Shown here piece after piece: positions 4,328-21,376 of a DNA stretch of 58,103 nt (its first letter is position 1; each line of letters opens with the position of its first letter). The DNA is taken from NCBI GenBank assembly GCA_021324885.1, contig JAJPIF010000015.1, forward strand, positions 1 to 58,103. Direction: 5' to 3'. The position numbers were made by a program, and so were the translations under genes. Source of the stretch: Pseudomonadota bacterium. GTDB taxonomy: Bacteria > Desulfobacterota > Binatia > Binatales > Binataceae. The notes under the pieces were generated by a model. The model searched no databases. It saw only the letters and a list, made by a program, of their open reading frames with translations, and was not told the origin of the DNA.

Positions 4328-4427
4328 GAGCGAGGAGTAACGGAAAAGAAGCGAGAAGTGAGAGAAAAAAAGCGCAACAGCCGCTTCTCTCGCTTTTTCC
4401 CATTTCGCCTCTCACTACTCACTGCTC
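4328..4427. repeat. Dispersed intergenic inverted repeat, copy A
   Basis: About 100 bases between the endolysin and holin-like genes. On the minus strand the left arm begins at the endolysin stop codon (GAGCAGTGAGTAGTGAGAGG) and the right arm contains CTCTCACTTCTCGCTTC. The arms are imperfectly complementary (for example GTGAGAG against CTCTCAC), giving a long hairpin. The right arm matches those of copies B and C. Confidence 0.7.
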
Positions 4428-4854
4428 ATGCCGCATGTTCCAGGTCAATCAAATGCAAATACCAGTAGCTGACGTTGCGGCACCAATTGCGGTTCAGCCC
4501 CTCCGGATCATTCGATGCGCCATTGGGGGCCCAGATACCGGCAAACCATGAGATGAACTCCCGCCCGTAGGTTACCGTCTGCTTGCCATCGGGCGTGTCG
4601 TGCAGTTCCAAAGCCGCGTTTTGCGCATCGTACTCGACCAGACGATGGCGCACGGTCTGGCAGCAGACTTCAAGCTGAGCCGTATAGGTCGGCGCGTTGA
4701 CGCTGAGCACGCCAAACTCCCGCCCGGGACCTCCGTCCTCGGCCTTGCGGATCGCCGCCACGAAATGCCAGTCGAGCCCGTAACGGGCCGCGGCAATCTT
4801 GATCAACGCGACTTCATCCAGCCATGCGGCCGGCGTCCATTCAGGATTGCCCAT
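4426..4854 (-). CDS. Putative phage endolysin (lysozyme/transglycosylase-like)
   Basis: About 142 residues from the ATG at 4854, chosen because a GGGAGG site lies five bases upstream; the ATG at 4869 has its site too close. No signal peptide. The segment ALIKIAAARYGLDWHFVAAIRKAEDGG, with a conserved-looking Glu, followed by FGVLS and the C-terminal FISWFAGIWAPNG and GLNRNWCRNVSYWY, resembles small phage cell-wall hydrolases with a lysozyme-like fold. The Glu in RKAEDGG is the best catalytic candidate. The start overlaps the end of the upstream membrane protein by 14 bases, as in lysis cassettes. Enzyme class is inferred. Confidence 0.55.
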   Translation of the reverse strand: MGNPEWTPAAWLDEVALIKIAAARYGLDWHFVAAIRKAEDGGPGREFGVLSVNAPTYTAQLEVCCQTVRHRLVEYDAQNAALELHDTPDGKQTVTYGREFISWFAGIWAPNGASNDPEGLNRNWCRNVSYWYLHLIDLEHAA

Positions 4855-5143
4855 CAACCTCCCTCCCATTCCTCCATCGCAGTTCGCTCACGGTCTCAAG
4901 CCGGGTGACTGCCGCCTCCTGCCGCGAGGTTATTTTCTCGGCGCGGTTGACGACCGACTCATGGCGTTCGACCACGTGGCGAATACCGGCGACCAGCTTG
5001 TCGGCGAACTCGTCCATGATCTTGCGAAAGACTTCGAGCAGGCGCAGGGCGTAGCGCGGCGCCAGCACTACCAGGAGCAGCAGCAATGCGGCGGGAAAGC
5101 CGACCTGCTGTATTATCTTTACCATATGGTCAAGAGGGTCCAT
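4841..5143 (-). CDS. Phage lysis-cassette protein: one TM segment plus coiled coil
   Basis: 100 residues from the ATG at 5143, which has AGGGA upstream; the ATG at 5125 has no site. Residues of about 8-30 (IIQQVGFPAALLLLLVVLAP) form one membrane segment. Residues of about 38-90 are charged and helical with heptad character (EVFRKIMDEFADKLVAGIRHVVERHESVVNRAEKI is the core). This topology fits a holin-like, XhlA/BhlA-like or spanin-like protein. The gene overlaps the endolysin start, so the two are translationally linked. Confidence 0.6.
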   Translation of the reverse strand: MDPLDHMVKIIQQVGFPAALLLLLVVLAPRYALRLLEVFRKIMDEFADKLVAGIRHVVERHESVVNRAEKITSRQEAAVTRLETVSELRWRNGREVDGQS

Positions 5144-5183: not shown

Positions 5184-8100
5184 TCAGTGAATCTTCCAGG
5201 CGCTGCCGTCACAAAATACCGGGCAGCTCACCGAGCCGCCGCCCGCCGGGGCGGCGCCGTACGAGCAGGCGGCGTTGTTGTCGGTAACCGCCATCCAGCT
5301 GAACCGGTTCGACGAGTTGCAGGCTCCCAGACCGCTGACCGTGGTGCTGCCCACGACCAGGCTGCCGCTTCCCGAAATACTCAGTCCCGAAGTGACTAGT
5401 CCGCCTCCGAGCAGAGTGAACGCGCCGGCGTTGGTGATCCCGAAATCCAGGCTTTGCGCGCCGTTGCTGCCCATCCACAGCGCGCCGGTGCCCGCGGTTC
5501 GCGCCGCCGAGAGGTCACCCGCTCTTGCACCCAGGGCGGCCGCGCCTGCGGAAAGTACTCCGGCCACCGCCGCGTTCCCGGTGCTGTTGAAGCTCGGCAG
5601 CCCGCGGCCCAGGCTGGCGTCGGCGGTGGCGTCGCTGAACGAATTGGAACCCAGTACCGGCACCCCAATCGAGTTGGCGGGGATACTCATCGCCAGCTTT
5701 TCCGTTCCGGTCCCGCCGTTGGCCGCAGTGCGATAGATGTTGTAGCTATCTGCGCCAATCACGGGAAAGATGGCTCCAGACACGAACACTCCGCCAACTC
5801 CGATGTTGCCGGCGCAGGAGACCGACGATTCGGAGGACGAGGCCAGAGTTTCGCCGCTGCCGCTGACGGCGGTATAGCGGTACAAATAGGTATTGTTGGC
5901 CGGCGATCCGCCGTCGCTGCAGGAAAGCTGGAATGGCCCGCCCGACGGGTTGGAGAGCTGCTGAACCGTCAAAGGACCGCCGAATTCACGCAACTTGCCG
6001 GGTAAGTCGTATCGCAAATCATCGGCGCCGGCCGGATCGCCGTTGACCAGGGCATTGATGAAATACTCTCCGATGCCCTGGTTGCCGACGTTGCCGTTGG
6101 GGCCCGGCAAACGTTGCATGTCTATGTATGTAATCTGGCGTGAATCGCCGCCCGCGACCGCGACATTGAAGTTCGGCTTGGTGATTCCCCGGCAGCCGCG
6201 GCAAAGAAACGTGCGCGACGCGGTGCCGGTGACGCCCAAATCGACGATCGGAACAGTCGACGGCGGCGCCTGCTCGGAGTTTACCAGCCGGAAGTCGTTT
6301 CCGATGAAGGTGAAATCCGCATTATTGCCCGCGATGAAATCCGAGTTGTAGGGCAACTGATTGGTCGCATCCCAGTCCGAGTCGGTAAGCACCAGCGTCC
6401 CGCCCGCATTGCCGCCGCTGCCGGCAAAAAGGGCAAGCTGGGCAAAGGCCGTAGCAGTGCCTGTGTTGAGCCAGTTGATTCCATTGTCCGCGGTTGCATG
6501 ATAGGCGATTCCACCGCTGCTCCCCCCGTTCGAACCCGTTTGATTGTAGGTAAACTGGTTCGCGGCGGGAACCGAGGTTATGGTGAAAGCACCGTCGAAA
6601 CTCGGATCCGAAACATTGACTATTCCCACCAGTTGCCCGACTGAGAAATCATGCGTGCTGGCGGTGGTCACCGTAACCACATTGGAGTTGCGGGACACGG
6701 TGCTGATAGTGAAGTTCGTGCTTTGCGTGGTCCACGCCGGTTGGGAAGCGCCACTGATTCCCGAATTGCCGGCGATTTCAAAGTTGCCGTTGCTGTCCTT
6801 GATTACAAAATTCTTCGGATACGTGAATCCCGGGTTCCACGGCGGCGCAATCGTCGTGGGACCATCGGTTTCGTCGCTGTAGTTTCTTATCGTGAGGTAA
6901 GCGGCCTGACCCAGGAAGAAGCTCAGCGCGGACTGGAGATCCTCGATTTGGGTGAACTCGATCTGGCTGAACCCGGCGTGAGCGTCGATACAGATGCCGT
7001 CGCGATTGCAATGCAGATTGCGCACGCTCCACTCGATCGCCTGATTCTGTCCAAATTGAATCCCGTAGATACCGTGAGTGACCGTGACATTTTCGACGAT
7101 GTTGCGATCATCCTGAGTGCCGCTCGGATCCGCTTCGATACCAGCTCCGACAGTCGGGTTTCCCCCGCCTGCGCCAGGCATACCCAGTTCGGACAGGTCG
7201 CCGCAGTAGATATTGGAAATGACGTTGAAGCTGTTCGGATGACCGGTCAGATTCCCGCTGCTGTTGTTTAGCAAATCCACGCAGGCGCTGGGCATCGTGC
7301 TCGCCTGGTCGCTGCCCATGATCGCGAAATCGTGCACCCGCGCTCCATAGCTGTCGACGATCTGGATGACCGGCTGATTGCCGCCAGCCCATACGATCAC
7401 CGTTCCACTCCCGTTGGGAGTGAGATTTGCGCCCGCGCCCTGACCCGCAAACTCTTCGCTGCGCCCGGCCACGGTCAGGGTCGTGGTGGTCATGATCACG
7501 CCACCGGGGACTTTCACCACTCCGGAGTTGTTAAGCGCCACCGCCTGGAGGGCCGTGTTGACCGCGGCCCCATCGTCCGTCCCGATGAACGCGGACGCAT
7601 TGCTCTGAGTCGGCCCGGGATACGGCGCGCTCAGGACCGCCGAGGGCGCCGCCACCGCGGTTATTGTTCCAGTGAACGTCCGCACGCTGGCGAGACCGTT
7701 GGACGCGGTCCAGATAACGATCAGCTTTCCGATGTCCGCCGAGGTGAATTTCGCGCTGTTGGAAGTGACTGACGTGGAACCGTTGACCACGCTCAAATCG
7801 CTCACGCGGCGCGCGTCGAGCTTGGCGCCGTACTGCATCGGATTGAATTCGTTGTTGACGTTGTAATCGGAAATCGAGAACGGCCCGCCCGAACTTTTCC
7901 CCGTGATGTTGCCGCCCGCGGCTATCCCGTTGATCGCCAGCGTGCCGTCGGCGGCAAGCGCGGCGTCCCCGGTGATCGATTCCGGCTGCCAAAGGTTCGC
8001 TCCAATGCTGAATATGGGCACCTGCGCATCCGCCGGCGCCGTCGGCGAAAAGCCAAAACCCTGGATGGCGCTGACCTTGCCCGGCTGCAGGACTGCGGTG

Positions 8101-8549
8101 CCGACGGATCCCGTGGCCGGATTGGTCACGGACAATCCATAATCGCCGCCGCTGGCGATGGACAAGGCGGAGATTACTGACGGAGGATCATTGTTGGCCA
8201 GAATCAGGGTCGCCAGATCGGCCGTCGCCGCCAGGGGTATTTGGATCTGTACCGGCTGCCCGCTGCCAACCGTGACCTGTACGATCGCGCCCTGCGGCAG
8301 CGTGACGCCCGCCGGCAGATTGCCCTGCGAGTCGGTGAAAACCGAAAAGGAAGAGGGCGGAATCACCGTGCCCCCGAACGACTGGGTCGAAATAGTTTGA
8401 AAGAAAACCTGCGCGTTGGCTCCAGCCTGTCCGTCGATCAGCGTGAGATTGCCGGTCAAGGTGCACAGATTGACCGCCGCGGCCATGCCGCCGGCCAGCA
8501 CAGTTGCGAAAACCGCGGCGGCCGCCGCTTTCGTTCGCCGACACCACAT
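5184..8549 (-). CDS. Phage tailspike with pectate-lyase-like beta-helix
   Basis: 1121 residues. The start is secure: ATG at 8549 with AAGGGGGG upstream. The first ~25 residues (MWCRRTKAAAAAVFATVLAG, then GMAAA) look like a Sec signal peptide, unusual for a virion protein. Residues of about 25-110 form a beta-rich head-binding-like region. Around residue 226 the beta-helix entry appears (NEFNPMQYGAKLDARRVSD), with DDGAAVNTALQAVALNNSGVV near 330, the hallmark of pectate-lyase-3-type tailspikes that bind or cleave surface polysaccharide. The middle is Asn/Gly/Thr/Ser-rich, and residues of about 870-960 look like a fibronectin-type module. It is the receptor-binding candidate. Confidence 0.8.
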   Translation of the reverse strand: MWCRRTKAAAAAVFATVLAGGMAAAVNLCTLTGNLTLIDGQAGANAQVFFQTISTQSFGGTVIPPSSFSVFTDSQGNLPAGVTLPQGAIVQVTVGSGQPVQIQIPLAATADLATLILANNDPPSVISALSIASGGDYGLSVTNPATGSVGTAVLQPGKVSAIQGFGFSPTAPADAQVPIFSIGANLWQPESITGDAALAADGTLAINGIAAGGNITGKSSGGPFSISDYNVNNEFNPMQYGAKLDARRVSDLSVVNGSTSVTSNSAKFTSADIGKLIVIWTASNGLASVRTFTGTITAVAAPSAVLSAPYPGPTQSNASAFIGTDDGAAVNTALQAVALNNSGVVKVPGGVIMTTTTLTVAGRSEEFAGQGAGANLTPNGSGTVIVWAGGNQPVIQIVDSYGARVHDFAIMGSDQASTMPSACVDLLNNSSGNLTGHPNSFNVISNIYCGDLSELGMPGAGGGNPTVGAGIEADPSGTQDDRNIVENVTVTHGIYGIQFGQNQAIEWSVRNLHCNRDGICIDAHAGFSQIEFTQIEDLQSALSFFLGQAAYLTIRNYSDETDGPTTIAPPWNPGFTYPKNFVIKDSNGNFEIAGNSGISGASQPAWTTQSTNFTISTVSRNSNVVTVTTASTHDFSVGQLVGIVNVSDPSFDGAFTITSVPAANQFTYNQTGSNGGSSGGIAYHATADNGINWLNTGTATAFAQLALFAGSGGNAGGTLVLTDSDWDATNQLPYNSDFIAGNNADFTFIGNDFRLVNSEQAPPSTVPIVDLGVTGTASRTFLCRGCRGITKPNFNVAVAGGDSRQITYIDMQRLPGPNGNVGNQGIGEYFINALVNGDPAGADDLRYDLPGKLREFGGPLTVQQLSNPSGGPFQLSCSDGGSPANNTYLYRYTAVSGSGETLASSSESSVSCAGNIGVGGVFVSGAIFPVIGADSYNIYRTAANGGTGTEKLAMSIPANSIGVPVLGSNSFSDATADASLGRGLPSFNSTGNAAVAGVLSAGAAALGARAGDLSAARTAGTGALWMGSNGAQSLDFGITNAGAFTLLGGGLVTSGLSISGSGSLVVGSTTVSGLGACNSSNRFSWMAVTDNNAACSYGAAPAGGGSVSCPVFCDGSAWKIH

Positions 8550-9844: not shown

Positions 9845-10741
9845 CTAGAAAGGCAAAAGCGACGCGAGTCCGCCCAGCAGACTGTCAATTCCGCCGCCGA
9901 GACCGCCTCCTCCGCCCAACGCGCCGAGCAAGCCGCCGACTCCCAGCAAACCCGCCAGCCCGCCCGATAACGGATCGATCGCGTTCGGATTTGGCCCGGT
10001 CTGCTGCGACTGATATGCGCCGCCCACCGCAGTAGGTATTGCAGCTCCCAGTTGACCCAGTATCTGAAACGGCCAGTTATACTGGTTTTCCGCGTTTTGC
10101 AGCGCGGTATTAAGGCCCTCCTGGCCGAACTGCTGCTGGATACTTCCGATATCCATCAGTTCGGCGGCGGGAGCAAAGGCGGCGTTAGTCAGGCCCGGCA
10201 GCAGTGCCTGCTGACGAATCTGATTCTGCCTTTCCTGTTCGTAATTGCCGCCGTAGATGTTGGTGGCCAGATTCTGCAGAACATCGCCAAGGTTTTGCTG
10301 CGCTATACTCTCCGCCTGGTTCTGCGCCGAACCGCCGAAACTGCCGGCCTTCGCGAACTCCGCCTGGATCCCGGGTTCGGTCGCGTCGCGGAACTGCTGC
10401 ACGACCGGGGCTGCCGCCGCATTGTATGTCGCCTGCAGGTACGGATTGGACTGCGGCGACAAGTATGCGCCCGACTGCGTGGCCGACACGTTGGCAGCCG
10501 CCGGCCCGAGAATATCCGCAGCCGTATTCATCGCGCTCTGCGACCCAAGGTTCATTCCCTGCAGCTGATCGGGCGTGAAGCCGTACAATTGCTCGGGGGG
10601 GAATGGGTATCCCGACTTCAATCCCTGGTTTACGTAGTTTCCGATGTCGCCCAGGAATTGCACCGCGTAGGGTTGCGCCCAAGCCGGCAATTTAACCTGG
10701 TTGGTCACCGTGGTATTTCCCGATCCGCCTCCGCTTCCCAT
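9845..10741 (-). CDS. Putative phage internal/DNA-injection protein
   Basis: About 298 residues. The ATG at 10741 is chosen because it overlaps the stop of the upstream gene as ATGA. The N terminus is Gly/Ser/Thr-rich (GSGGGSGNTTVTNQVKLPAW). The central part (SNPYLQATYNAAAAPVVQQF, FAKAGSFGGSAQNQAESIAQ) is a repeated pattern common in uncultured podovirus proteins thought to be ejected with DNA. The C terminus is hydrophobic and glycine-rich (GGLAGLLGVGGLLGALGGGG), possibly membrane-active. It is translationally coupled to the GNAT-like gene, a frequent partner. The role is inferred. Confidence 0.55.
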   Translation of the reverse strand: MGSGGGSGNTTVTNQVKLPAWAQPYAVQFLGDIGNYVNQGLKSGYPFPPEQLYGFTPDQLQGMNLGSQSAMNTAADILGPAAANVSATQSGAYLSPQSNPYLQATYNAAAAPVVQQFRDATEPGIQAEFAKAGSFGGSAQNQAESIAQQNLGDVLQNLATNIYGGNYEQERQNQIRQQALLPGLTNAAFAPAAELMDIGSIQQQFGQEGLNTALQNAENQYNWPFQILGQLGAAIPTAVGGAYQSQQTGPNPNAIDPLSGGLAGLLGVGGLLGALGGGGGLGGGIDSLLGGLASLLPF

Positions 10742-11163
10742 CACAGCACCTTCTCGAATTTCATTTCGCTGATTTCAAAACCGTCATTCGCAAGCCGCTT
10801 CGTCCAACCCCGTCGCGGAGAATGAAACACCAGCTTGCGAAGTCCAGCCCGCACCGCCATCGCCTTGACCTCGGCCAGACCGTATCCAAGGGCCAGCGGA
10901 TGACAGGTGTAAGCGGCCCATATCAGGAGACTGCGTTCCGCGCTGAACGGATCCGTGTTGATGGTCAGCACCAGCGCACCGGCATAATGCTGATCGATAT
11001 AGGCCACATGCATCGTGGCCGCGCCACTGCGCACCGCTGAGTAGATATCCTCGCACAACCAGGATGCCCTCGCCTTTGTGCGGACCCGCTCCAGTCCGGG
11101 CTTCACCTGTGGCCAGTAACTGTGCAACTCGACCGGGTTGACCTGTACCAACTTCCATTCCAT
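10741..11163 (-). CDS. GNAT-like protein of the phage structural region
   Basis: 140 residues with a strong GGAGGA site before the ATG at 11163. The sequence (SGAATMHVAYIDQHYAGALVLT, then LLIWAAYTCHPLALGYGLAEVKAMAVRAG) has the strand-helix pattern of a GCN5-related acetyltransferase. The acetyl-CoA-binding Q/RxxGxG/A loop is weak (LALGYG). Similar small GNAT-like proteins lie in the structural modules of many environmental podoviruses, where the role is uncertain. Stop and next start overlap as ATGA. Confidence 0.55.
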   Translation of the reverse strand: MEWKLVQVNPVELHSYWPQVKPGLERVRTKARASWLCEDIYSAVRSGAATMHVAYIDQHYAGALVLTINTDPFSAERSLLIWAAYTCHPLALGYGLAEVKAMAVRAGLRKLVFHSPRRGWTKRLANDGFEISEMKFEKVL

Positions 11164-11666: not shown

Positions 11667-12563
11667 CTAGTAATAACGCGACCATCCCGCCGATCCTCCT
11701 CCACCCGCGCCGGCGGTAATGCCGCCACTCGCGCCTCCCGCTCCACCGTCGAGCAGGACCGTGCCGCTGTTGGCCGGACTGTGAATGTAGGCAATCGCGT
11801 AGGTGAAGAAGTATCCGCCGCCGCCACCGCCTCCGCCGCCGTTGGGTCCCGCGGCCCCAGCAAATCCGTCCTGGCCCCTTAAATCGACGATCGCGGTTGA
11901 CTGAAAGTCGATTTCCCTGCACACAAGAACCAATCCGGCCCCGCCGCATCCGCCGTTGCCAGGCTGCGCATTGTGGCAATCGAACGGATTTGCGGCTCCC
12001 GCGCCGGCGCCGCCCGGCATCCCGCCCGAACTGTCAATCGTGCTGGGCAGGTCGTCGGCAATGAAGGTCTTAATCACGCTGCTCAGCGGCGTTCCGTCCT
12101 GACCGCTGCCGCCCGGATTGCCCTGCGCGCCGCCGGCGCCGCCGTTGAAGTCGAGGCTGGGCGAAATAACGCCCAGCGCCTGAAGGCCGGCCGCGGTCGG
12201 ACTGCCGCCGCCGCCCCCGCCCACCCCGCCTATCGTGTAGACTGGATTGGCGGCGCCGCGGCCGTTGATTGTACCCGCAATCGTACATGTTCCCGGCGAT
12301 CTGACTATCAGCGTCGATGACGGCGCAGTGTTGAAATCCTCGACAATGTTTACGGTAGCGCCGGCGTTAACGGTAAAGCTGGCGTAGCTGTGATCGCCCC
12401 CCAGCGTAATCGTGCCCGTGGGGCTGGGGTCGGGCTCGGAACCGTCGCCGAAATAGTCGAAAAAATGAGGTGCCGGTGGGGGCGGCGGGACATACGTCCC
12501 CATCGTGACGGCGGCGGCCGCCACGCACAGGCCCGCGAGCGCCAGCCGTATTTTCCTGTTCAT
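11667..12563 (-). CDS. Glycine-rich tail-region protein with signal-peptide-like start
   Basis: About 298 residues. The ATG at 12563 overlaps the upstream stop as ATGA, so it is preferred over an ATG 12 bases earlier. Residues 1-22 (MNRKIRLALAGLCVAAAAVT) form a typical signal sequence, followed by a polyproline stretch (VPPPPPAP). The remainder has beta-strand segments (GTITLGGDHSYASFTVNAGA) and long Gly runs (GGVGGGGGGSP, GPNGGGGGGGGGYFF) such as those forming polyglycine helices in some phage adhesin tips. A surface adhesin-like tail component is plausible. Export of a virion protein would be odd. Confidence 0.55.
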   Translation of the reverse strand: MNRKIRLALAGLCVAAAAVTMGTYVPPPPPAPHFFDYFGDGSEPDPSPTGTITLGGDHSYASFTVNAGATVNIVEDFNTAPSSTLIVRSPGTCTIAGTINGRGAANPVYTIGGVGGGGGGSPTAAGLQALGVISPSLDFNGGAGGAQGNPGGSGQDGTPLSSVIKTFIADDLPSTIDSSGGMPGGAGAGAANPFDCHNAQPGNGGCGGAGLVLVCREIDFQSTAIVDLRGQDGFAGAAGPNGGGGGGGGGYFFTYAIAYIHSPANSGTVLLDGGAGGASGGITAGAGGGGSAGWSRYY

Positions 12564-13288
12564 ATAATTGCCCATTTCCCCGCCGAATAATCGATTATGC
12601 TGAAGGCGGCGTAGCGCGTCAGGATGCCGAAGGAGCCCGCGCCGTCGTCGATCGTGTCGCTGCCTGCCGGCGTAACGGCTATGCTGTACGGGTTGGCATC
12701 AACTTTCTTGACTTCGAGCAGACGGGCCGATCCAGTGGCCGCGGGCAACAGAACCACCGTATCGGCGGAGGTGCCGGCCGATGCGATAATCAGATCGTCC
12801 TCCGGCTCAACACTGTATGGCGAATCGGCATAGCTAATTATTTTGATATTGAACTGGCCCGACGCGATCGGCACGCTCGCATACCAGTTTTTCCCGTCAA
12901 ACGTCATCGGCACCATTGCGCCGCTGGGCAGGGTTACGCTGCCGTTTGGCAGTACGATGTTGCCGGACGGCACCAGCGCAAACGGCGCCGCTGCGATCAG
13001 GTAGAACGTACCCGTGAATCCCCGCGGGGGTTTGATGGTCGCCAGCGAGACGCCTCCCTCGACGAAATGCATCAGGCTGGAAATGTCGATCGACGCATCC
13101 GCGCCCGAAAAGGAAATGGTGGTTACCGCCGAACCGGGATTGCCGCTGCTCCTGAGACCGGGATCCGCGCTGATCGAATTGATCACACTGGTAACCTTGG
13201 CCGCCCAGGTCGAAAGCTGGCGATTGGTCTCGCGCGCCGGCTCGCTGTGCGCCAGCGGTAATTGCAGTGAAGGAATCCTTTGCGGCAT
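12560..13288 (-). CDS. Tail-fibre-like phage protein
   Basis: About 242 residues from the ATG at 13288, chosen because it overlaps the upstream stop as ATGA. The N-terminal segment (LPLAHSEPARETNRQLSTWA) is helical. The rest is beta-rich with repeated short motifs (GNIVLPNGSVTLPSGAMVPM; PFALVP; DTIDDGAGSFGI). The C-terminal part (ILTRYAAFSIIDYSAGKWAII) resembles the end of phage tail-fibre modules. Both ends are coupled to neighbours by ATGA overlaps. Exact role unknown. Confidence 0.55.
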   Translation of the reverse strand: MPQRIPSLQLPLAHSEPARETNRQLSTWAAKVTSVINSISADPGLRSSGNPGSAVTTISFSGADASIDISSLMHFVEGGVSLATIKPPRGFTGTFYLIAAAPFALVPSGNIVLPNGSVTLPSGAMVPMTFDGKNWYASVPIASGQFNIKIISYADSPYSVEPEDDLIIASAGTSADTVVLLPAATGSARLLEVKKVDANPYSIAVTPAGSDTIDDGAGSFGILTRYAAFSIIDYSAGKWAII

Positions 13289-14742
13289 CAGCGCGTCCCC
13301 TGGATATCCCAATCCACGTCCATGCCGGTAATCTCGCAGTCACCCGAGGTTTCAATACGCACCGCGTGATAACGGGCCGCCTGTCTCATCGCAAACGCGC
13401 CGTAAGGCGTCAGTTCGCACTGGGGTCCCGCCATCTGCAGGTCGCCGAGGTTGTAGCGGTAGAGCGGAGTCGCTTTAGCCCCGTTGCTTGGAGGGTAGGT
13501 TTTGAATCTCGGCCGCACCGTTCGCACCATCGAATAGTGCATCGGATCGCCGATATCGCCGGTCGTGACAAACCCGCTCGCAAAATCTCCCGAAAAGCTG
13601 TACAGGTTGTGGTCGCCAAGAACCAGGGACATGCCGAACACCGCCGTCGGTGAATAGCTAATGGCGCCATCCGGCGTAACTGGCGCAAACGGTGTGACTA
13701 CCGCTTCAACATTGTTCGCGACCTTCCCAGTCATCCAGCGGTTGGTGTCGGGATGCCAACATATATATCGATCCAGCGCTCCTGGCGGATTGGCCGCAAC
13801 CGACGGATAAAACCATACGATCAGGTTGTGCAGCTTGTCCCACACACCCCACACGTTGGTGGCGTGCGTGCAGTCCAGGCTGCTTTCGTAAAACCATCGC
13901 CGCAGAGGATTTTCCAGAACGCGCGGCGGCGCCCCGTCGCAGGTGTAGAAGTTTTCGACCCCCATCGCCACCTGCAGACCGCCGTATGACACGACCGCTT
14001 CGTCGCAAATCGCGCCCGCGTCGTCAGCCAGCAACGAAAAGCTCCAGATCACGGGCGGGCCAAGGTAAGTGCCCAGATAAGTCGCGCGCTGTTTATAGAC
14101 TAAAAGATTGGCGCCCAGCGCATGCGCCGCTACGATCGGACCGGGTGTGTCGCCAAGCGTTCCATTCGCCGCCTGCGTGCCGATATCGGGAGTCCAGGTG
14201 CTATCGTTGCCAATTCCGCAACAGTTCCAGTCGTTGCCCGCGCTGTCCAGGATGAAGACGAAATCGCCCACCGCCTCCACGATCGAACCATGCGGAGGAT
14301 TGCCGCCCAGCGCCGCGGCCGCGCTGTAAGCCGGAGCGGTAAGCACCTGCGGCGGGTCGCCGGGGTTCAGAACGATGAGGTCGCCGCCAAACATGGTCCA
14401 ACGCCAGCGCGCGCTGCGGTAACCGGCGGGATTGGCGGGCCCATTGAAGGTCTGCCCGCCCGACACGTCGAGGAAGGAATTGGAAACAATATCGTAAGTG
14501 TAAAGCTTGTTCGCGGACGCAACGAAAATGGCGCGTCCGGCGTTGATTGCATCCTGCTCGAAAAACGCCCCGTAGCAGGTAAGCGGCAGGGGTCCGCCGG
14601 TGCTCTCGATTCGCAACTGGCGCAAGGGGCGATAGCCGGCGGCGGTGGGAAACATCTGATCCGCGTCGACGAAAATCCCGGTTTCCGTCGGATCCAGGTC
14701 GGGCGCGAAACCCCGATTGAACTTCACGCTGAGTCTCGCCAT
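13288..14742 (-). CDS. Phage tail stopper/nozzle-type protein (beta-propeller-like)
   Basis: About 484 residues from the ATG at 14742 (ATGA overlap with the adaptor stop; MARLSVKFNRGFAPDLDPTE). Repeated blade-like segments (ARWRWTMFGGDLIVLNPGD; GDFVFILDSAGNDWN; NLLVYKQRATYLGTYLG; YICWHPDTNRWMTG) suggest a beta-propeller or beta-sandwich protein like P22 gp10 or T7 nozzle proteins, which close the head-tail channel. Position directly after the adaptor supports this. The family match is by pattern and context. Confidence 0.65.
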   Translation of the reverse strand: MARLSVKFNRGFAPDLDPTETGIFVDADQMFPTAAGYRPLRQLRIESTGGPLPLTCYGAFFEQDAINAGRAIFVASANKLYTYDIVSNSFLDVSGGQTFNGPANPAGYRSARWRWTMFGGDLIVLNPGDPPQVLTAPAYSAAAALGGNPPHGSIVEAVGDFVFILDSAGNDWNCCGIGNDSTWTPDIGTQAANGTLGDTPGPIVAAHALGANLLVYKQRATYLGTYLGPPVIWSFSLLADDAGAICDEAVVSYGGLQVAMGVENFYTCDGAPPRVLENPLRRWFYESSLDCTHATNVWGVWDKLHNLIVWFYPSVAANPPGALDRYICWHPDTNRWMTGKVANNVEAVVTPFAPVTPDGAISYSPTAVFGMSLVLGDHNLYSFSGDFASGFVTTGDIGDPMHYSMVRTVRPRFKTYPPSNGAKATPLYRYNLGDLQMAGPQCELTPYGAFAMRQAARYHAVRIETSGDCEITGMDVDWDIQGTR

Positions 14743-15377
14743 CACCAATACGCCCGCAGTCTGCCGGTAAACTTCTTCGCGCCGGTTTCCTGCTTGAGTT
14801 TGCGGAAATACAAATCCGCCATCTGCCGGTCCGACTGCGCGCCCTGCGGATCGTTGAGCACATTCATTCTCAGCAGGAATTTCGCATAGGCCCGCACCAT
14901 CTCCCGGCCCTGCATCGTCCAGAAATTACTGTCCGTATCAAGCACGGGCGGCGGAATGATTTGAACGTAATCGTATTGGAGGCGATATGCGCCGTCCGGC
15001 GTGGGGAAAAGTCGAATACTCATTCCGCTGGCAGGCAGGTTGACGGCATATTCGACCGGCGGACCTGTGACCGGCGAAAGTGTATTGGAATCCTCGGCGT
15101 TGATGTATTCCCAACTCCGCAGCCGCAGCGGGTACTTGGTGTTCGCGACCGTAATCGTCAATTGCCGGATTTCGGCGACGTCCGCCGGCGCCGAATAGAC
15201 GTTGATGCCGGCAGTGGTAACGGTCGAGCTGTCCTGCGCGTCATTGCGGAAGAAACCGTCGCGCCCGAAGTAGTCGGCGGCTTCAATAATCGCGTTGTCG
15301 ATCTGCGCCGCCAAATCGTTGCGCTGCAGCTCGTCCATTATCCGCGCCCGCATGTCCGCCAGAGTAGAATCCGCCAC
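14742..15377 (-). CDS. Head-tail adaptor protein (P22 gp4 / T7 gp11-like)
   Basis: 211 residues from a GTG at 15377 with AGGAGAG upstream. The N-terminal helix (ADMRARIMDELQRNDLAAQI), the DNAIIEAADYFGRDGFF segment, a beta-rich middle ending in MSIRLFPTPDGAYRLQYDY, and the C-terminal MVRAYAKFLLRMNVL helix match the usual layout of podovirus adaptor/tail-tube A proteins. Such proteins dock on the portal ring. Its presence without any recognisable portal gene in the block is notable. Confidence 0.7.
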   Translation of the reverse strand: MADSTLADMRARIMDELQRNDLAAQIDNAIIEAADYFGRDGFFRNDAQDSSTVTTAGINVYSAPADVAEIRQLTITVANTKYPLRLRSWEYINAEDSNTLSPVTGPPVEYAVNLPASGMSIRLFPTPDGAYRLQYDYVQIIPPPVLDTDSNFWTMQGREMVRAYAKFLLRMNVLNDPQGAQSDRQMADLYFRKLKQETGAKKFTGRLRAYW

Positions 15378-15859: not shown

Positions 15860-16957
15860 TCAGGAAAGTTGGGACCAGGTGCTCACCACGATGGTGGCGA
15901 AATCCGCCGAGTTGAAGACCGACTTGGTTGCTCCCCAAACCGAGCCCACGGCGACGCCAACCTGGTCCTCGTAGTCATCGGCCTGGGTTACCCACTTGTA
16001 CTTGGTGGGCCAGTTGTAACTGCGGCCAAACGCGATTACTGCCGCCTGCGCGCCGCAGAAAATCGCGCGCGCAACCGAAGTCGTCCCCACCGCAGGGGCG
16101 CCGAGGTCGGTATGGAGCAGGTTCTGAGTATTGTCGCCGTACGGAACCCGCGCGTCCTCATGCAGAATCACGCCGTTGAACATCCCCAGCGCACCGGTAA
16201 AGATCGGGTTGTCCTCGATCTGGCCGCCCTGCATCGCCGCCATCTGGATATCCTTCCAGTCGCCGGCGGTGGTCGATTTTCGCAGCGCCTGCACCTGGAA
16301 CGGATGCAGGAACATCACGTAGTACTCGCCGTTCTTCAACCGCACCGGCCGAATCGCCGGCGTCAGCGTCTTTGCGGTCGCGACGCATTGGTCGACCAGC
16401 GAGAGGGTGAAGGTCATGGTCGAAGTCAGCGTAGCCTCGCTGGTCGCGCCCCCGGCGAAAATATGATGGGCTGCGTCGGGCGCGATCGGTGAGTTGTTGC
16501 CGGTGAAAAGCGGATTTGCTTGCGCGGTGTTGCCGCCCAGGTGGTTGAGCAACGCCACGTCGTAACGGCTCGCGTACCAGTCTGAAAGCGCGATTTTGGC
16601 CTCGTTGAGCAGATCCCACGGCACTCGCTGTTGCGACACGCTTCCCTGCAATTTGACCGCGTGACGCAGGTTGTCGATGAGCAGCGAATTGGTGTAAAAG
16701 GTCATCGCCTCTTCGTTGCCTTCGAGCAAGCCGAACCCGAGCACGCCGGTCCCGCTGAGCTGCATACGCAGAGTATAGGTAATCTGGTCGCCGGGATGTT
16801 TCTGGGTGTCGTCGAGAATCTGAATCAGCGCATCGGAGGTCGCGCCGATAAACTTGGTCGCAACCGTTTTTTTGCGGGTTTCGCGATAAAGTTCCTTCGA
16901 CCACAGTTTGTTGGTCGAAGGATCGGTTGGGTTGAAAAAGGTGTTAGCCACAGCCAA
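15860..16957 (-). CDS. Major capsid protein, N4-gp56/DUF4043 type
   Basis: 365 residues; the start is a TTG at 16957 or, more likely, the GTG two codons later, with GGAG upstream. Family-like features include KKTVATKFIGATSDALIQIL, the polar segment GDQITYTLRMQLSGTGVLG, QQRVPWDLLNEAKIALSDWY, LNHLGGNTA, YYVMFLHPFQ and ARAIFCGAQAAVIAFGR. These fit the N4-gp56 family of HK97-fold capsid proteins. No protease or scaffold gene is adjacent. The gene has a long leader with its own promoter-like box and several hairpins, suggesting control separate from the gene upstream. Confidence 0.8.
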   Translation of the reverse strand: MAVANTFFNPTDPSTNKLWSKELYRETRKKTVATKFIGATSDALIQILDDTQKHPGDQITYTLRMQLSGTGVLGFGLLEGNEEAMTFYTNSLLIDNLRHAVKLQGSVSQQRVPWDLLNEAKIALSDWYASRYDVALLNHLGGNTAQANPLFTGNNSPIAPDAAHHIFAGGATSEATLTSTMTFTLSLVDQCVATAKTLTPAIRPVRLKNGEYYVMFLHPFQVQALRKSTTAGDWKDIQMAAMQGGQIEDNPIFTGALGMFNGVILHEDARVPYGDNTQNLLHTDLGAPAVGTTSVARAIFCGAQAAVIAFGRSYNWPTKYKWVTQADDYEDQVGVAVGSVWGATKSVFNSADFATIVVSTWSQLS

Positions 16958-17041
16958 TCGCTCCGTCCGTTAAAGTGAGTTACTCTGGCGCTTGCGCGCC
17001 GTCACACTCCTTCTTCAACGCCGAAGGACTGGGCTCATTGG

Positions 17042-17183
17042 CGCCCGGTTTCGGGCGTCAATGCATCCGTTATAGCCCGGAAGCGGCTGACCCGCGCATC
17101 CGCGGGTCCCGGCGATCTTTCGCAGCCGCCGGTTCTGCTCGTCCCAAACACCGGGACGCATCGGCTATAGCCCCGATGCGGCT
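17042..17183 (-). ncRNA. Cluster of five hairpins in the capsid mRNA leader
   Basis: Perfect inverted repeats: CGCCCG/CGGGCG with 4-base loop (17042-17057); GACCCGCG/CGCGGGTC with 4-base loop (17089-17108); CGTCCC/GGGACG with 7-base loop (17140-17158); GCATCGG/CCGATGC (17158-17179). A near-copy of the last stem-loop is at 17063-17088: the 26-base units at 17063 and 17158 share 22 bases. All lie between the promoter-like box and the capsid start. Could be a structured leader RNA or attenuator; not matched to a known RNA family. Confidence 0.45.
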
Positions 17184-17194
17184 TTGATTTAGTA

Positions 17195-17224
17195 ATTATA
17201 TATATACATTTTTGCCGGATGCAA
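17195..17224 (-). promoter_or_regulatory. Candidate promoter for the capsid gene
   Basis: On the minus strand, TATAAT (17195-17200) lies 18 bases after TTGCAT (17219-17224). The -10 is perfect and sits in a rare AT-rich run; the -35 is poor. Transcription would start near 17188 and give a ~235-base leader. Confidence 0.45.
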
Positions 17225-17307
17225 ATAGCAAGTGCATCGGCAGGTGATGGACACTGCGGAAATCGGGCCTGTAGTTATTTAACCAAACGCGGACTGCCGA
17301 TCGTCGG

Positions 17308-17355
17308 AGAAACCGCGGCCTTGCCGCAGCGGATGGGATTGCTCATCCGCGGTTT
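17308..17355 (-). terminator. Hairpin just downstream of the HPr-kinase-like gene
   Basis: Perfect 10-base arms GAAACCGCGG (17308-17317) and CCGCGGTTTC (17346-17355), with an inner CGGATG/CATCCG pairing. It begins 33 bases after the stop of the gene at 17388. The following minus-strand sequence is only modestly T-rich, so it may be a hairpin terminator of weak type or a processing site. Confidence 0.45.
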
Positions 17356-17387
17356 CGCATCGCGCCGAATCCACAATTTTGTGCTCT

Positions 17388-18311
17388 TCAACGAAGTGAG
17401 AGATTCAGCCTCGTTCCCTTGTCGGCTGCCGCGGATCCCGGCAACAAATTGAGGATGTCTTCGGGCTCGCCGCAAACCCCTTTTAGTATCGACGCTCGCG
17501 CCAGGGCCTTCGAAATCGCCGGCGGTATGGCGTTCGGATCATGCCTGGAGAGCAGGGTGTCGGCAGTCAACTCCATGGCCGCTGCAAAGCGCCCGACAGG
17601 AAAGAAACGCGTTTGTGCGCCGGGCCGCAGGGAGGCAAAAACCACCGTTGTGAGCGGCAAGGGCTTGATGCCCACCTTCGCCCCGAGATCTTCAGGCCGA
17701 TAGCGGATCGGATTTCCATAAGTGCCGCGCCTCAACCACAAAGGACGCGGATAAGGATGGATCCGGCCAAGACTGTCCAACACCGCATACCGATCCGAAT
17801 AATACGAGGCTCCGGCACGCAACAACGCCGCAACCAGGGCTGAAATTTCAAAGTGAGCGGGACCTTTTACCACGATCGCGCGTCCGCGCCATCCTACCGC
17901 TCCGGCCTGAATAAAGAGCCGGTCCTGCGAAACACTCACTCCCACCCGGCGGTCGAGCTCCGCTTCGAGCGCCCCCAGCACCGGTTCGAGCTTGTACGCA
18001 GCCGAAATCAGCAGGCGGCCGCGGAACAGAAGATGGAGCCGTTCCAGTCCCGGCGGAGCTGAGTCATTGCCGACCACCAGGGAGTATTGCGGGTCTCCGG
18101 CCGATTCCTGGATCTCACGCCATCCGGGAGGCAGCCGAAGTTTTATTGGCACCAACGCCGCCGGCTCGGTTACCTGCAATATGGTCTGCACGCCGTGGCT
18201 GCTGAAGCCGATCCTGGCGCGCCAATGCCAGTTCTCCAGTCTCACGCATCCCGAGTCGCGTTTGATCCGGGCCACGGCCAGCGGAACAGGGGAAGACGGA
18301 CCAGAAACCAT
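17388..18311 (-). CDS. HPr-kinase-like (HprK-related) protein with destroyed Walker A
   Basis: About 307 residues from the ATG at 18311; the frame is open for 28 more codons upstream but without a good site. Residues of about 1-135 form a beta-rich N-terminal part. Residues of about 140-190 match the HprK-like kinase core: a strand leading to a P-loop position, a helix (ALVAALLRAGASY), then YYSDRYAVLDSLGRIHPYPR, which is very like active members. The P-loop itself reads GPAHFEIS (149-156) where GPxxxGKS is expected, so the Gly and the ATP-binding Lys are both lost. It is therefore probably not an ATP-using kinase. It stands between terminase and capsid, where a portal gene would normally be, with its own promoter box and downstream hairpin. 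Confidence 0.7.
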   Translation of the reverse strand: MVSGPSSPVPLAVARIKRDSGCVRLENWHWRARIGFSSHGVQTILQVTEPAALVPIKLRLPPGWREIQESAGDPQYSLVVGNDSAPPGLERLHLLFRGRLLISAAYKLEPVLGALEAELDRRVGVSVSQDRLFIQAGAVGWRGRAIVVKGPAHFEISALVAALLRAGASYYSDRYAVLDSLGRIHPYPRPLWLRRGTYGNPIRYRPEDLGAKVGIKPLPLTTVVFASLRPGAQTRFFPVGRFAAAMELTADTLLSRHDPNAIPPAISKALARASILKGVCGEPEDILNLLPGSAAADKGTRLNLSLR

Positions 18312-18394
18312 CGTCACGAATTTCCGCGGTTGCACTCTAGCACGTAACAAAAAGTCACGCGGGCGCAAATGATTGTGTAAGCTGTTTTTATGCA

Positions 18395-18427
18395 ATTATA
18401 GACCTGTTTTGATTGAAATCGGGTCAA
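18395..18427 (-). promoter_or_regulatory. Candidate promoter of the HPr-kinase-like gene
   Basis: On the minus strand TATAAT is at 18395-18400, 83 bases before the ATG at 18311. A TTGACC box (18422-18427) lies 21 bases upstream, longer than ideal. The perfect -10 is the main support. Confidence 0.4.
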
Positions 18428-18616
18428 ATGTTTGGTGCTTTTCGTTCCGTTCCCTGATCACAATTCATGCCCCCCGCACAGGCGAGTTGGTGGCGGAAAA
18501 CGAGGTCTTCGCCTCTTTTGTTTGCTTCCCCCTCAGACGCGTGACAAGCGTGTTCGCCTAAACGCCTGTCCGGAAAACTAAGCGCGTTGATTCTGCCCAA
18601 AGCCGACGTTCACAAA

Positions 18617-18637
18617 TTGTTGTCATTTGTACAACAA
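18617..18637. promoter_or_regulatory. Operator-like palindrome
   Basis: TTGTTGT (18617-18623) and ACAACAA (18631-18637) are perfect 7-base inverted arms separated by 7 bases, the geometry of a dimeric repressor site. It lies in the AT-rich gap after the terminase gene. No regulator gene is nearby. Confidence 0.35.
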
Positions 18638-18719
18638 AGCGTGAAGGAATGCAAGGGTAATCAAACTTTTTGTGTGGAAAAAGTTCGAGAATGTTACAAA
18701 ACTGCGAGTAAGGTCATAT

Positions 18720-20366
18720 TCAGGCTGACATCCAGTTGTTGCGTCCTGCTCGGCGTTGCTCGCGCCAGCGGCGCAGTTCTTCAGCTTCGCCTCCGTCTTC
18801 AGCGGGTGCGGGCCATGGCAGATCCACATCAAACAGCCGGCTCAGCGCGTCGAGCATGTCGTCGTGACGGCATCCTCCGCCCCCAACCAGATAATTGGCA
18901 TATTCCTCCTCGATGAAAACCCGGACCAAATCTTCCTCCACGCCATGGCTATTGGTGCGATAAAGATTCAGCGGCATCACCAGGCGGCCTTGTTCGAAAA
19001 GCGCGACCAGGCGCGCGACGCGATCGGCCTTGCTCAAGCGTCCGCCGACATCCCGAATCGAAAAGCGATAATTCTCCCGCGCCATGCGGTCATTGAGATA
19101 TGAGATGTCGGCCTGAAGGCCGTAATTCTCGTACACCACGGCGCTGCGGCTGCGCGCGAATTGCCATTTGCGATGCAGCCCCAGAACCGCGTCGCCGCGC
19201 TCGGTCAGACTTAACCGGTCGCGCACCATGTCGAGCACGTAATAATTGCGATCCGCCGCCAGCCCCAGCACCCAGATACTGGTGTAGTCGGCGTTGCGGC
19301 TTTTGGAATTGGCCGGATCGACCAGCATCAGCTTGTTCATCGCGCGATGGTTGGGCGGATGGCGCACGGGATCGTAGCGGCAATTCATGTTGGCACCCTC
19401 GAGCCATTCACGGCGGAACATCCGCGCGCCCGCCCCGGCCGGCCGCTGCTGATAGAGCGCCTGAAACGCCATCGGATCATTGATGCGCCGTTTTTCCAGA
19501 TCCTCGAGCGAATAACGTTCGGGCCATAACGGCTCGCCCGGCGCCCGCCCCAACGGATCCTGCTCTTCGGCAATGGCCGGCAGGTTTATCACACACCAAC
19601 CCTCCTGCGCGTGTTCGGTCAGCAGCCATCCGATCAGGTCGTCTTCGTCCCAGCGGGTGTGGATTATTACGACGATCGCGTCCGGCGCCAGGCGCGTGTA
19701 GATTACCTTGCTCCACCAACTGCGGATCTGGCGCCGCACCGCCTCGCTGCGCACCTCTTCTTCGTCCTTGTAGGGATCGTCAACGATAAACAAATCGGCG
19801 CGGCGCCCGGTCGCGGATCCGCCTCGTCCGACCGCGAAATAGGTGCCGCCCTGTTCAGTGGTGAAGCGCAGCGCGCTATTGGAATCGCGCCGCACCGCGA
19901 ATTGTGGAAAGGCCAGCCGAAACAGCGGATCGTTTACCTGATCCTTCACGCTGAGCCCGAAATCCAGCGCCTTGGTTTCGTTGTACGCCGCGGTGATTAC
20001 CGAGTGTTCGGGATGGCGGCCGAGATACCAGGCCGGAAAATGCTGGCTGGTAGTCCATGACTTCCCGTGCTGCGGCGGCATGGTGATGACCAGCCGGGTC
20101 AGTTCACGCCGTTCCGCCGCCATCAGCCGGTCGGCCAGATACAACAGATGGCGCGCCGGCCGCCATCGCGGATTGAGCGCGAGGCAATACTGTACCAGGT
20201 CCTCCCGGATGAGGGGCAGCAGACTTTTCTTGTCAGGATAGAGTTTCTCCAGTTCGCTATCGTCTGGATATTCACTCGCCGCCGCCTCTATATACTCGCG
20301 ATTTTCAATCTCCTCTCCCAACTGACTACTGAAATATTTTACCCGCCGCCCAGCCGCCGCCGCCAC
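18720..20366 (-). CDS. Phage terminase large subunit
   Basis: 548 residues from a GTG at 20366, which directly follows an in-frame stop; no clear ribosome-binding site. ATPase motifs: Walker A variant MPPQHGKS (96-103) and Walker B LFIVDD (192-197), with a coupling segment VVIIHTRWDEDD. The C-terminal RNase-H-like nuclease has its acidic residues at Asp350 (MLVDPANSKSRNADYTS), Glu414 (VVYENYGLQ) and Asp503/504 (HDDMLDAL). All expected motifs are intact, so the enzyme could be functional. It packages DNA by docking on a portal, yet neither a small terminase nor a portal gene is next to it. It is the first gene of the phage block. Confidence 0.92.
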   Translation of the reverse strand: MAAAAGRRVKYFSSQLGEEIENREYIEAAASEYPDDSELEKLYPDKKSLLPLIREDLVQYCLALNPRWRPARHLLYLADRLMAAERRELTRLVITMPPQHGKSWTTSQHFPAWYLGRHPEHSVITAAYNETKALDFGLSVKDQVNDPLFRLAFPQFAVRRDSNSALRFTTEQGGTYFAVGRGGSATGRRADLFIVDDPYKDEEEVRSEAVRRQIRSWWSKVIYTRLAPDAIVVIIHTRWDEDDLIGWLLTEHAQEGWCVINLPAIAEEQDPLGRAPGEPLWPERYSLEDLEKRRINDPMAFQALYQQRPAGAGARMFRREWLEGANMNCRYDPVRHPPNHRAMNKLMLVDPANSKSRNADYTSIWVLGLAADRNYYVLDMVRDRLSLTERGDAVLGLHRKWQFARSRSAVVYENYGLQADISYLNDRMARENYRFSIRDVGGRLSKADRVARLVALFEQGRLVMPLNLYRTNSHGVEEDLVRVFIEEEYANYLVGGGGCRHDDMLDALSRLFDVDLPWPAPAEDGGEAEELRRWREQRRAGRNNWMSA

Positions 20367-20463: not shown

Positions 20464-21240
20464 CTACTCCCCCTTCCATTGGGGTTTGCGCTTCTCGACG
20501 AACGCGCGCGCCCCTTCTCGGGCGTCCGAGCTCTTCAAAATAACCTTGACCATCTCGTCGAGATCCTCGTGCTCCGCCAAAAACGCGTCCCTCATGCAGC
20601 GCCGCAGGGTCGCCTTGACGGTGCGCAGGGAAAGCGGCGCATTGCCGGAAATCTTCTCCAGCAGCCTGCGCCCGGCCGCTTCCACCTCCGCTTCGGGCGC
20701 AACTTCATTGACCATCCCCATCTCCAGCGCGCGCCTGCCGTCGACTGGTTCCGCACTGAACAGCAGATAGGCGGTTGCCGGCGCGCCGATTACTTCGATC
20801 AGTTTGCGCGTGAAATCAAACGGCGGAATCAATCCAACCTTCGCCACTGGCATGCCCAGGCGGGCGGTTTCAGCCGCGATGCGCAGGTCGCAATGCAAAC
20901 CAAGCTCCAGTCCCCCGGCCAGCGCCGCTCCCCGGATCACCGCGACCGTCGGAATCGGCAAGGCCTCCAGCCGGTGGAACACCGTCTCCAGACTCAGCCC
21001 GCCGCCAATCTCGGTGGTGTCCACGCGATGGCCCTCGGCCAGATCGATCCCGGCGCAGAAATGTTTGCCCTCGCCGGTCAGCATCAGCGCCCTGATACTC
21101 TTGTCCTTTTCCGCCGCCGCGAACGCCCTGTCCAGCGCCGCCAGCATTGCGTTGTTGATCGCATTGCCCCTCTCAGGCCGGTTCAATCTGACCGTCAGAT
21201 AATCGCCCGAGCGCTCCACCTTGACCAATTCATCCGCCAT
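20464..21240 (-). CDS. Enoyl-CoA hydratase/isomerase (crotonase family)
   Basis: 258 residues; ATG at 21240 with AAGGAG upstream. Crotonase features: NRPERGNAINNAML, oxyanion-hole segments GKHFCAGIDLAEG and RGAALAGGLELGLHCDLRIA. By eye alignment to rat enoyl-CoA hydratase, Glu144 is kept (GGLEL) but the Glu164 position is Val (LGMPV). One-glutamate crotonases are often isomerases or other acyl-CoA enzymes. It lies just outside the phage block, on the same strand as the other crotonase on the far side. Divergent from the MFS gene. Confidence 0.88.
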   Translation of the reverse strand: MADELVKVERSGDYLTVRLNRPERGNAINNAMLAALDRAFAAAEKDKSIRALMLTGEGKHFCAGIDLAEGHRVDTTEIGGGLSLETVFHRLEALPIPTVAVIRGAALAGGLELGLHCDLRIAAETARLGMPVAKVGLIPPFDFTRKLIEVIGAPATAYLLFSAEPVDGRRALEMGMVNEVAPEAEVEAAGRRLLEKISGNAPLSLRTVKATLRRCMRDAFLAEHEDLDEMVKVILKSSDAREGARAFVEKRKPQWKGE

Positions 21241-21376
21241 TGAATTCTCCTTATGAAAACTTCGGCCCAGTTGACTCCGGCGGTCCAGAACATCCAACAA
21301 AAGCCGGATTTACCGGCCGCGCAGACCTTTCATCCGGTCGCCGTTTGCGCAGAGAGTAGCTCAAACCTTCCTGCGT

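Follow-up and report, generated by a model that had tools for sequence, protein, structure and literature searches.

Gene transfer agents (GTAs) are defined as caudoviricete-derived elements, endogenized often over multiple loci, which are inherited vertically, co-diversify with their hosts and have lost the ability to replicate, and which package mostly random host DNA rather than their whole own genome and deliver that DNA; RcGTA is described as comprising five loci and ~20 kb (PMC9662315). A podovirus-like, two-operon precedent has already been published: FpGTA of Faecalibacterium is GTA-like and most likely podovirus-like, and one operon carries terminase large subunit (TerL), portal, scaffold, and capsid genes and the other carries the tail and lysis genes (PMC12946183). 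The element described here shares with RcGTA and other GTAs, as outlined in the former source, its caudoviricete-type genes, its distribution over several loci, and vertical inheritance, but unlike RcGTA it has kept replication genes, and packaging and delivery of DNA are here candidate properties. Compared with FpGTA, it resides in another host phylum, is split into TerL, capsid, and tail genes versus portal and scaffold genes, has a replication trio at a third site, and carries a pseudokinase gene in the scar. Particles have been shown for FpGTA, whereas the present element is known from its genes alone and the two are compared by description. The literature searched contained no account of this element, nor of a pseudokinase of HprK type at a comparable position.

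The window, by which we mean the whole stretch of DNA analysed here (58,103 nt), is the entire contig C6 of genome G000 (4.53 Mb, 30 contigs). It was compared with 2 congeners, G001 (Centralia_MAG_399) and G002 (Centralia_MAG_231), with G004 from another genus, and with the metagenome contig L062. We consider it probable, with some reservation, that the window contains one part of an ancient element of podovirus origin, spread over three loci and passed on vertically, with a host-derived HprK-related pseudokinase lodged in its scar, a composite without proven use. The features of this part, locus A, and of its host flanks are as follows.

2654-3415, minus strand: short-chain dehydrogenase, host flank on the side opposite TerL (PF13561; conserved in G001 and G002)
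4426-5143, minus strand: a pair of small genes in the lysis position (4426-4869 and 4841-5143; called endolysin/holin by eye only)
5184-8549, minus strand: large tailspike-like protein (named by eye; only phrog_9998, of unknown function)
9845-10744, minus strand: DNA ejection protein-like (phrog_4287, 8.7e-15)
11667-12575, minus strand: no assigned function; G001 and G002 conserve this gene of the block (genome comparison)
12560-13312, minus strand: no assigned function; this gene, too, is conserved in the blocks of G001 and G002 (genome comparison)
13288-14748, minus strand: virion structural protein (phrog_3287, 1.7e-39; positioned like the nozzle gene in Paracoccus phage KLEP18-1)
14742-15377, minus strand: tail adaptor (SU10_adaptor; PF24175, 1.3e-14)
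15860-16957, minus strand: major capsid protein (PF13252, 3.4e-70; phrog_334)
17388-18311, minus strand: HprK-related pseudokinase gene (ORF; TIGR04352 at 19.5 bits, sub-threshold; same slot in G001, G002, and L062)
18720-20366, minus strand: TerL (Pfam Terminase_6N, phrog_38; Walker A PPQHGKS kept in 4/4 aligned copies)
20464-21300, minus strand: enoyl-CoA hydratase, host flank on the TerL side (PF00378; beside TerL in G001 and G002 too)

A tblastn search with the window ORFs recovered the same block, with the same host genes on either side, in both G001 and G002. By their Pfam names, the host genes on the TerL side are enoyl-CoA hydratase, MFS, Omp85, TamB, and hydrolase genes, and those on the other side are short-chain dehydrogenase, enoyl-CoA hydratase, and OmpA genes. 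The 2 small genes at the lysis place gave no family hit, portal and scaffold-like genes are absent from the block, and none of the window ORFs scanned matched an integrase at E <= 0.01, in scans with E limits of 1, 1, 0.1, and 0.01. An integrase PHROG for ORF 10741-11163 (E 0.29) was taken as a chance match.

The HprK-like ORF runs from an ATG at 18311 to a stop at 17388 (307 codons and 307 aa, no internal stop) and, as the initial annotation reported, it stands alone between the TerL and capsid genes, both of which are identified by Pfam and PHROGs. The ORF recurs in the matching slot of the 2 congeners at 55-61% identity, which goes beyond chance. The core SDRYAVLDSLGRIHPYPR is present in the protein as described. 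The same annotation noted that the Gly and Lys of the Walker A motif are lost while the helix and Asp motif around it are kept, and this holds: GxxxxGK[ST] is absent, and the surrounding motifs are conserved across the slot copies.

17790-17798, minus strand: SDR, residues 172-174, SDE in the outside copies (alignment)
17841-17864, minus strand: former P-loop GPAHFEIS, residues 150-157 (alignment against GTS in G001, G002, and L062 and GK[ST] in 7 outside copies)

Residues 155 (Gly) and 156 (Lys) are invariant in the 4 outside copies of alignment A1 and are Glu and Ile in the window protein; the Glu that follows the Asp in outside copies, residue 174, is Arg. At the P-loop the slot copies read EIS (window) or GTS (the other three), and at the Asp they read SDR or SDQ.

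Judged by profile scores, the HprK kinship of the window protein is distant and lies under every curated cut-off. Its only curated-model match is TIGR04352 HprK_rel_A (19.5 bits versus a cut-off of 200), and the HprK-like core claimed for it stands as membership of an HprK-related family at this remove; relatives outside the element reach 48.4-48.9 bits with the same model, likewise far under 200. A Pfam search of the window protein gave no HprK model, no Hpr_kinase_C, and no kinase, and NCBIfam listed no TIGR00679 match for it; TIGR00679 matches outside relatives at 12.4 and 19.2 bits. In the PDB, phmmer with the window protein and a profile search with A1 both reached no HprK structure, and AlphaFold2 run from 4 sequences only gave the HprK-like protein a pLDDT of 35.9 and a pTM of 0.24. 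Likeness to HprK (TIGR00679, PF07475) is distant and runs through the outside relatives, and the window protein has lost the P-loop. The nearer comparison is with the HprK-related kinase A family (TIGR04352), the best curated match, whose PqqD and NTP_transf_5 neighbours recur beside the outside relatives; slot copies differ from these kinases in having neither the P-loop Lys nor, within the stretch examined, a PqqD-like neighbour.

Family-alignment matches at E <= 1e-10 occur in 13 of the 148 genomes of the class. These genomes and L062 together hold 11 genes with the YYSD core, 4 in the slot (window, G001, G002, and L062) and 7 elsewhere (G038, G066, two in G079, G101, G108, and a frame-broken copy in G070). 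The P-loop Lys is lost in all 4 slot copies, whereas GK[ST] and YYSDE are kept in 7/7 outside copies; GKS is also seen by eye in 4 weaker relatives (L086-L089). By Pfam, a PqqD-domain gene adjoins 4 of the 7 outside copies (G038, G066, G079 C79, and G101) and NTP_transf_5 adjoins 2 (G038 and G070). Within the stretch read, no PqqD-like gene adjoins the slot copies, whose neighbours are TerL and capsid genes, plus an AraC-type gene in G002. Elsewhere in the window's own genome (C29, L031:1105-2246) there is another kinase of HprK type, only very distantly related, in which GVSGSGKT is intact and whose gene adjoins a PqqD-domain gene. The survey of relatives that had been suggested as a check found that G001, G002, and L062 have the gene at this position, always with the P-loop Lys lost; the block that carries it is not an intact prophage.

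A tree of 14 rows, comprising 10 of the 11 YYSD copies (the frame-broken G070 copy was left out) and 4 outgroups, places the 4 slot copies in a single clade (100/100, stem 0.96), with a long-branch warning. Since the slot copies form one clade, the P-loop Lys was most simply lost once. The window copy is the longest tip of this clade (0.48 versus 0.24-0.32), and the L062 copy is 56-57% identical to those of G001 and G002 versus 50% to that of the window.

Whether such a protein is being retained or is merely eroding can be weighed from its substitutions. Among the 3 genomes the gene has dN/dS values (NG86) of 0.287, 0.224, and 0.287, with dS of 1.04-1.44, and its frame is open in 4/4 slot copies. 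In a simple simulation of neutral evolution, with substitutions only and no indels, just 1 of 4000 and 4 of 4000 runs kept the frame open; at third-position rates the count was 0 of 4000. YYSD, GWRGRAIV, and LEPVLGALE are invariant across the 4 slot copies, and within alignment A1 the 3 genome slot copies keep Gly150, Tyr170, Tyr171, Ser172, Asp173, and Asp179. The sites that are invariant outside and lost in these copies include Lys156, Glu174, His135, and Asn251, and the same alignment has losses at non-catalytic sites. Catalytic residues lost amid surrounding motifs that are kept fit a pseudoenzyme. Because the frame is under purifying selection (dN/dS 0.22-0.29), these comparisons show the gene, at the level of its sequence, to be a lineage-wide pseudokinase rather than a case of fresh decay, and the initial annotation's preference for something other than simple decay agrees with the open frames, these dN/dS values, and the finding of intact GK[ST] only outside the slot.

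The opposing account, in which an HprK-related host gene landed in the gap and is now dying and functionless, draws on the fact that this is the fastest block gene measured in loci A and B (0.22-0.29 versus at most 0.23), on the loss of the P-loop, His135, Asn251, and other outside-invariant sites, and on the long branch of the window copy. With 4 open frames of 4, neutral retention of the frame very unlikely, and 3 motifs invariant in all slot copies, we judge plain decay unlikely but worth keeping in view. The long branch of the window copy does make slow erosion possible, although other window block genes are also slightly faster (adaptor 79.5% versus 83.8-84.8%; virion protein 78.4% versus 81.5-82.1%). 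Even under the reading of a pseudokinase lodged in an ancient element, then, the gene might be a slowly eroding neighbour.

The initial annotation took the gene for a moron and suggested for its product a sensor, decoy, or binding role, perhaps touching host carbon regulation. As a rival explanation this would make it an accessory gene carried by a phage and expressed independently, whose HprK-like product would act as a decoy altering host carbon signalling. Much of the layout behind that proposal is present: the gene stands alone with gaps on both sides, the segment 18001-19000 has the lowest GC (0.55) of 57 one-kb windows, a TATAAT lies upstream of it at 18395-18400 on the minus strand, and an inverted repeat with perfect 10-nt arms (17309-17318 and 17347-17356, 28-nt spacer) begins 31 nt past its stop. 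However, a scan of 16900-18800 found 0 sigma-70-type promoter pairs versus 0.8 expected in shuffles, neither the congeners G001 and G002 nor L062 conserve the TATAAT box, and the long-spacer repeat (17309-17356) is not one of the six terminator-like hits of that scan. The box, the repeat, and the AT-rich flank therefore stand as sequence features, but the promoter, terminator, and moron layout read into them do not. The HprK-like protein has no match in 50,697 phage records and none in IMG/VR as a single query; with alignment A1 as the query, IMG/VR yielded a single locus, L062, which is the sole match in a viral collection and itself a piece of this element. Absence from other phages, which the initial annotation itself had named as counting against a phage function, is thus largely what is seen, and the block is not an intact prophage: it has no portal gene and occupies a fixed chromosomal place in 3 species. 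For carbon regulation nothing was found that speaks in its favour: HPr is present in 3/3 congeneric genomes but canonical HprK scores above its cut-off in 0/3, and relatives with intact P-loops adjoin PqqD-like genes (4/7 by Pfam), not PTS genes. A moron of this kind is very improbable.

Of 166 free phages with a capsid relative, 4 were inspected (Paracoccus phage vB_PmaP_KLEP18-1, Rhizobium phage RHph_Y1_10, isolate ctDrO704 (MW202512), and Microcystis phage Mae-JY35), and all 4 have the order TerL, portal, capsid. Among the matches listed, these podoviruses are the best capsid relatives (38.6-52.0%), and their portal relatives are at 29.5-34.3%. They keep TerL, portal, and capsid genes together, whereas those of the element are split, and the HprK-like gene fills the place of the portal gene that is missing between TerL and capsid. 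The stretches read of the 4 phages carry no annotation of an HprK-like gene, and 3 of the phages have HNH-type genes between portal and capsid. The usual order, with a portal relative upstream of a 36% capsid relative, is also found on a Chloroflexi MAG contig (L058, PUNJ01000016.1).

Upstream of the capsid leader, the HprK-like gene occupies the slot in 4/4 genus-type copies that show it. Other relatives of the element have other occupants, a VWA-domain gene in G004 (L027:288-1709) and a Kelch-repeat gene in L064 (L064:10-1392), and in G002 only, a gene for an AraC-type regulator (L010:8772-9668) lies between TerL and the HprK-like gene. Foreign genes thus come to lodge at the cut in the head module.

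The missing parts lie elsewhere in the chromosome. G004 encodes a 681-aa P22-type portal (P22_portal, 1e-74) near its capsid gene, and this portal as a query found one copy each in G000 (C4), G001 (C85), and G002 (C3) at 74-75%, on contigs other than those with TerL and capsid in all 3 genomes. Similarly, a phrog_9804 protein that adjoins the G004 TerL has relatives in G000 (C5), G001 (C90), and G002 (C42). The 2 further loci are these.

Locus B, L040:4044-11150 (G000:C4), L041, and L042: portal, small genes, ATP-grasp-like gene (by eye), scaffold-like gene (by place), and one further gene
Locus C, L070:8285-10471 (G000:C5), L071, L072, and L054:3817-5894: replication-type gene, phrog_9804 gene, and 188-aa gene

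The contents of locus B are collinear in the 3 congeneric genomes; both flanks agree between G000 and G002, and in the stretch examined G001 agrees only on the glyoxalase side. A papain-type peptidase was confirmed in locus B of G002, and the peptidase and ATP-grasp-like genes are unusual company for a head module. On one side of locus C, SAM_HAT, M50, dCMP deaminase, and M17 peptidase genes are common to G000, G002, and G004, while the G001 locus is on a contig of 7.9 kb where no match to a host flank was found. Host genes common to 2 genera imply that integration at locus C predates both. The element is split into A (TerL, HprK-like gene, capsid, adaptor, and tail), B (portal and scaffold-like), and C (the replication trio). 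In G002, loci C and A share one contig, ~15 kb apart with host genes between.

Loci A, B, and C are on different contigs in G000, and all genomes are MAGs of 30-160 contigs, so the 3 loci could in principle be assembly or binning artefacts of a single prophage. However, the loci are internal to their contigs, bounded by host genes wherever the sides are covered, and the same joins recur in independently named assemblies. We regard an artefact as extremely improbable.

The measured genes of the element evolve at the pace of host genes, in comparisons covering three to four species, all MAGs, with dS near saturation. For 13 phage genes from loci A and B, dN/dS is 0.049-0.226 (0.05-0.23) and dS 0.47-1.52; host genes used for comparison have 0.041-0.342 (0.04-0.34) and 0.71-1.83, a range that excludes the h_enoylB pairs with G001 (37-38%, a paralogue). 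For locus C genes dN/dS is 0.09-0.19 within the genus and 0.17-0.29 to G004. From within the genus to G004, identities fall in step for phage and host genes: TerL from 85-86 to 77%, capsid from 92 to 83%, M50 from 82 to 70%, and M17 peptidase from 72 to 59%. Capsid and portal relatives co-occur in the same 4 of 96 relative genomes; TerL relatives occur in 13 of the 96, at 76-100% in those 4 and at most 45% in the rest. In IMG/VR the portal query gave no match, and the TerL query gave 52 loci with a best identity of 41%, none of them element-type by identity. Set against the GTA definition, TerL, portal, capsid, and adaptor are caudoviricete-derived proteins; endogenization extends over loci A, B, and C; and shared flanks, host-like dS, and in-step identities from genus to family level, in three to four species, indicate vertical inheritance and co-diversification. 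The definition has replication lost; here locus C retains a replication-protein gene with its partners, all evolving under purifying selection. From these comparisons we are highly confident that this is a split, vertically inherited element under selection.

An ordinary defective prophage, split by recent rearrangement and never domesticated, would account for the retained replication genes, for split points that differ between genera, and for the mixed host-type occupants of the slot, namely the VWA gene of G004, the Kelch gene of L064, and the AraC gene of G002. The capsid locus of G004 lacks the flanks of locus A, which indicates that part of the scatter is indeed later rearrangement. Against this explanation, every measured gene is open, under purifying selection, and at host-like dS across species, and locus C flanks are common to 2 genera; a minority chance, roughly that of plain decay for the pseudokinase, seems right for it.

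Between the slot and the capsid gene lies a region that is itself conserved.

16954-17184, minus strand: conserved hairpin-rich leader ending at the capsid start (alignment and folding of copies)
17195-17224, minus strand: capsid promoter, with a TTGC-type -35 (17219-17224), an 18-nt spacer, and a TATAAT -10 (17195-17200); 7/7 aligned copies have TTGC and TATAAT

The leader is ~230 nt long (264 nt in L064 and 260 nt in G004 by the same cut) and contains a GGCTATA-loop hairpin in 2 copies and an invariant TCCTTCGGCGTTGA block; promoter and leader are found in G004 and L064 too. Every copy can be drawn with eight hairpins, of which the fourth is weak in L062 and L059, and 92.9% of cells pair in a five-row alignment. 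Six pairs are changed on both sides, a count equally high in 30 of 500 shuffles, and the covariation score was reached in 3 of 500. A strong claim of covariation was rejected: the covariation term of the fold that RNAalifold itself proposes is +0.52, folding z-scores range from -1.66 to -5.32, and in 4 of the 9 helices of the five rows the pairs never vary (helices 5, 8, and 9) or nearly never. No Rfam family reached its gathering score in the window, the leader giving only chance-level hits at E <= 10, and the leader does not recur near loci B and C: apart from the capsid leader itself, blastn over the loci covered gave only hits at E >= 0.1 or the internal repeat. The leader may regulate capsid synthesis.

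How such an element might work can be sketched. Particle genes at separate loci could still be expressed together, making short-tailed particles, and TerL would package DNA through the portal. Because no single site carries all particle genes, the packaged DNA would be mostly host DNA, a GTA-like use that is a likely candidate role, at a little under even odds. The pseudokinase would no longer transfer phosphate and would act, if at all, by binding a peptide or a PqqD-like or HPr-like partner. It is tied to the particle by position only, and we doubt that it has any part in a GTA-like use. The fullest version, a working podovirus-type GTA of an uncultured soil genus of proteobacteria, spread over 3 loci, with its own phage-derived replication site, a capsid operon controlled by a new structured leader RNA, and an exapted pseudokinase in the TerL-capsid gap serving as regulator or assembly partner, is somewhat unlikely.

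If the main reading is true, the element would be a second candidate, in another phylum, whose head module has been divided with a foreign gene in the gap, and it would show how a host dismantles and keeps a phage. The pseudokinase would offer a small natural experiment, in which a single loss of the P-loop Lys was followed by retention of the frame. A split relic together with its passenger pseudokinase may represent a new kind of gene-transfer particle.
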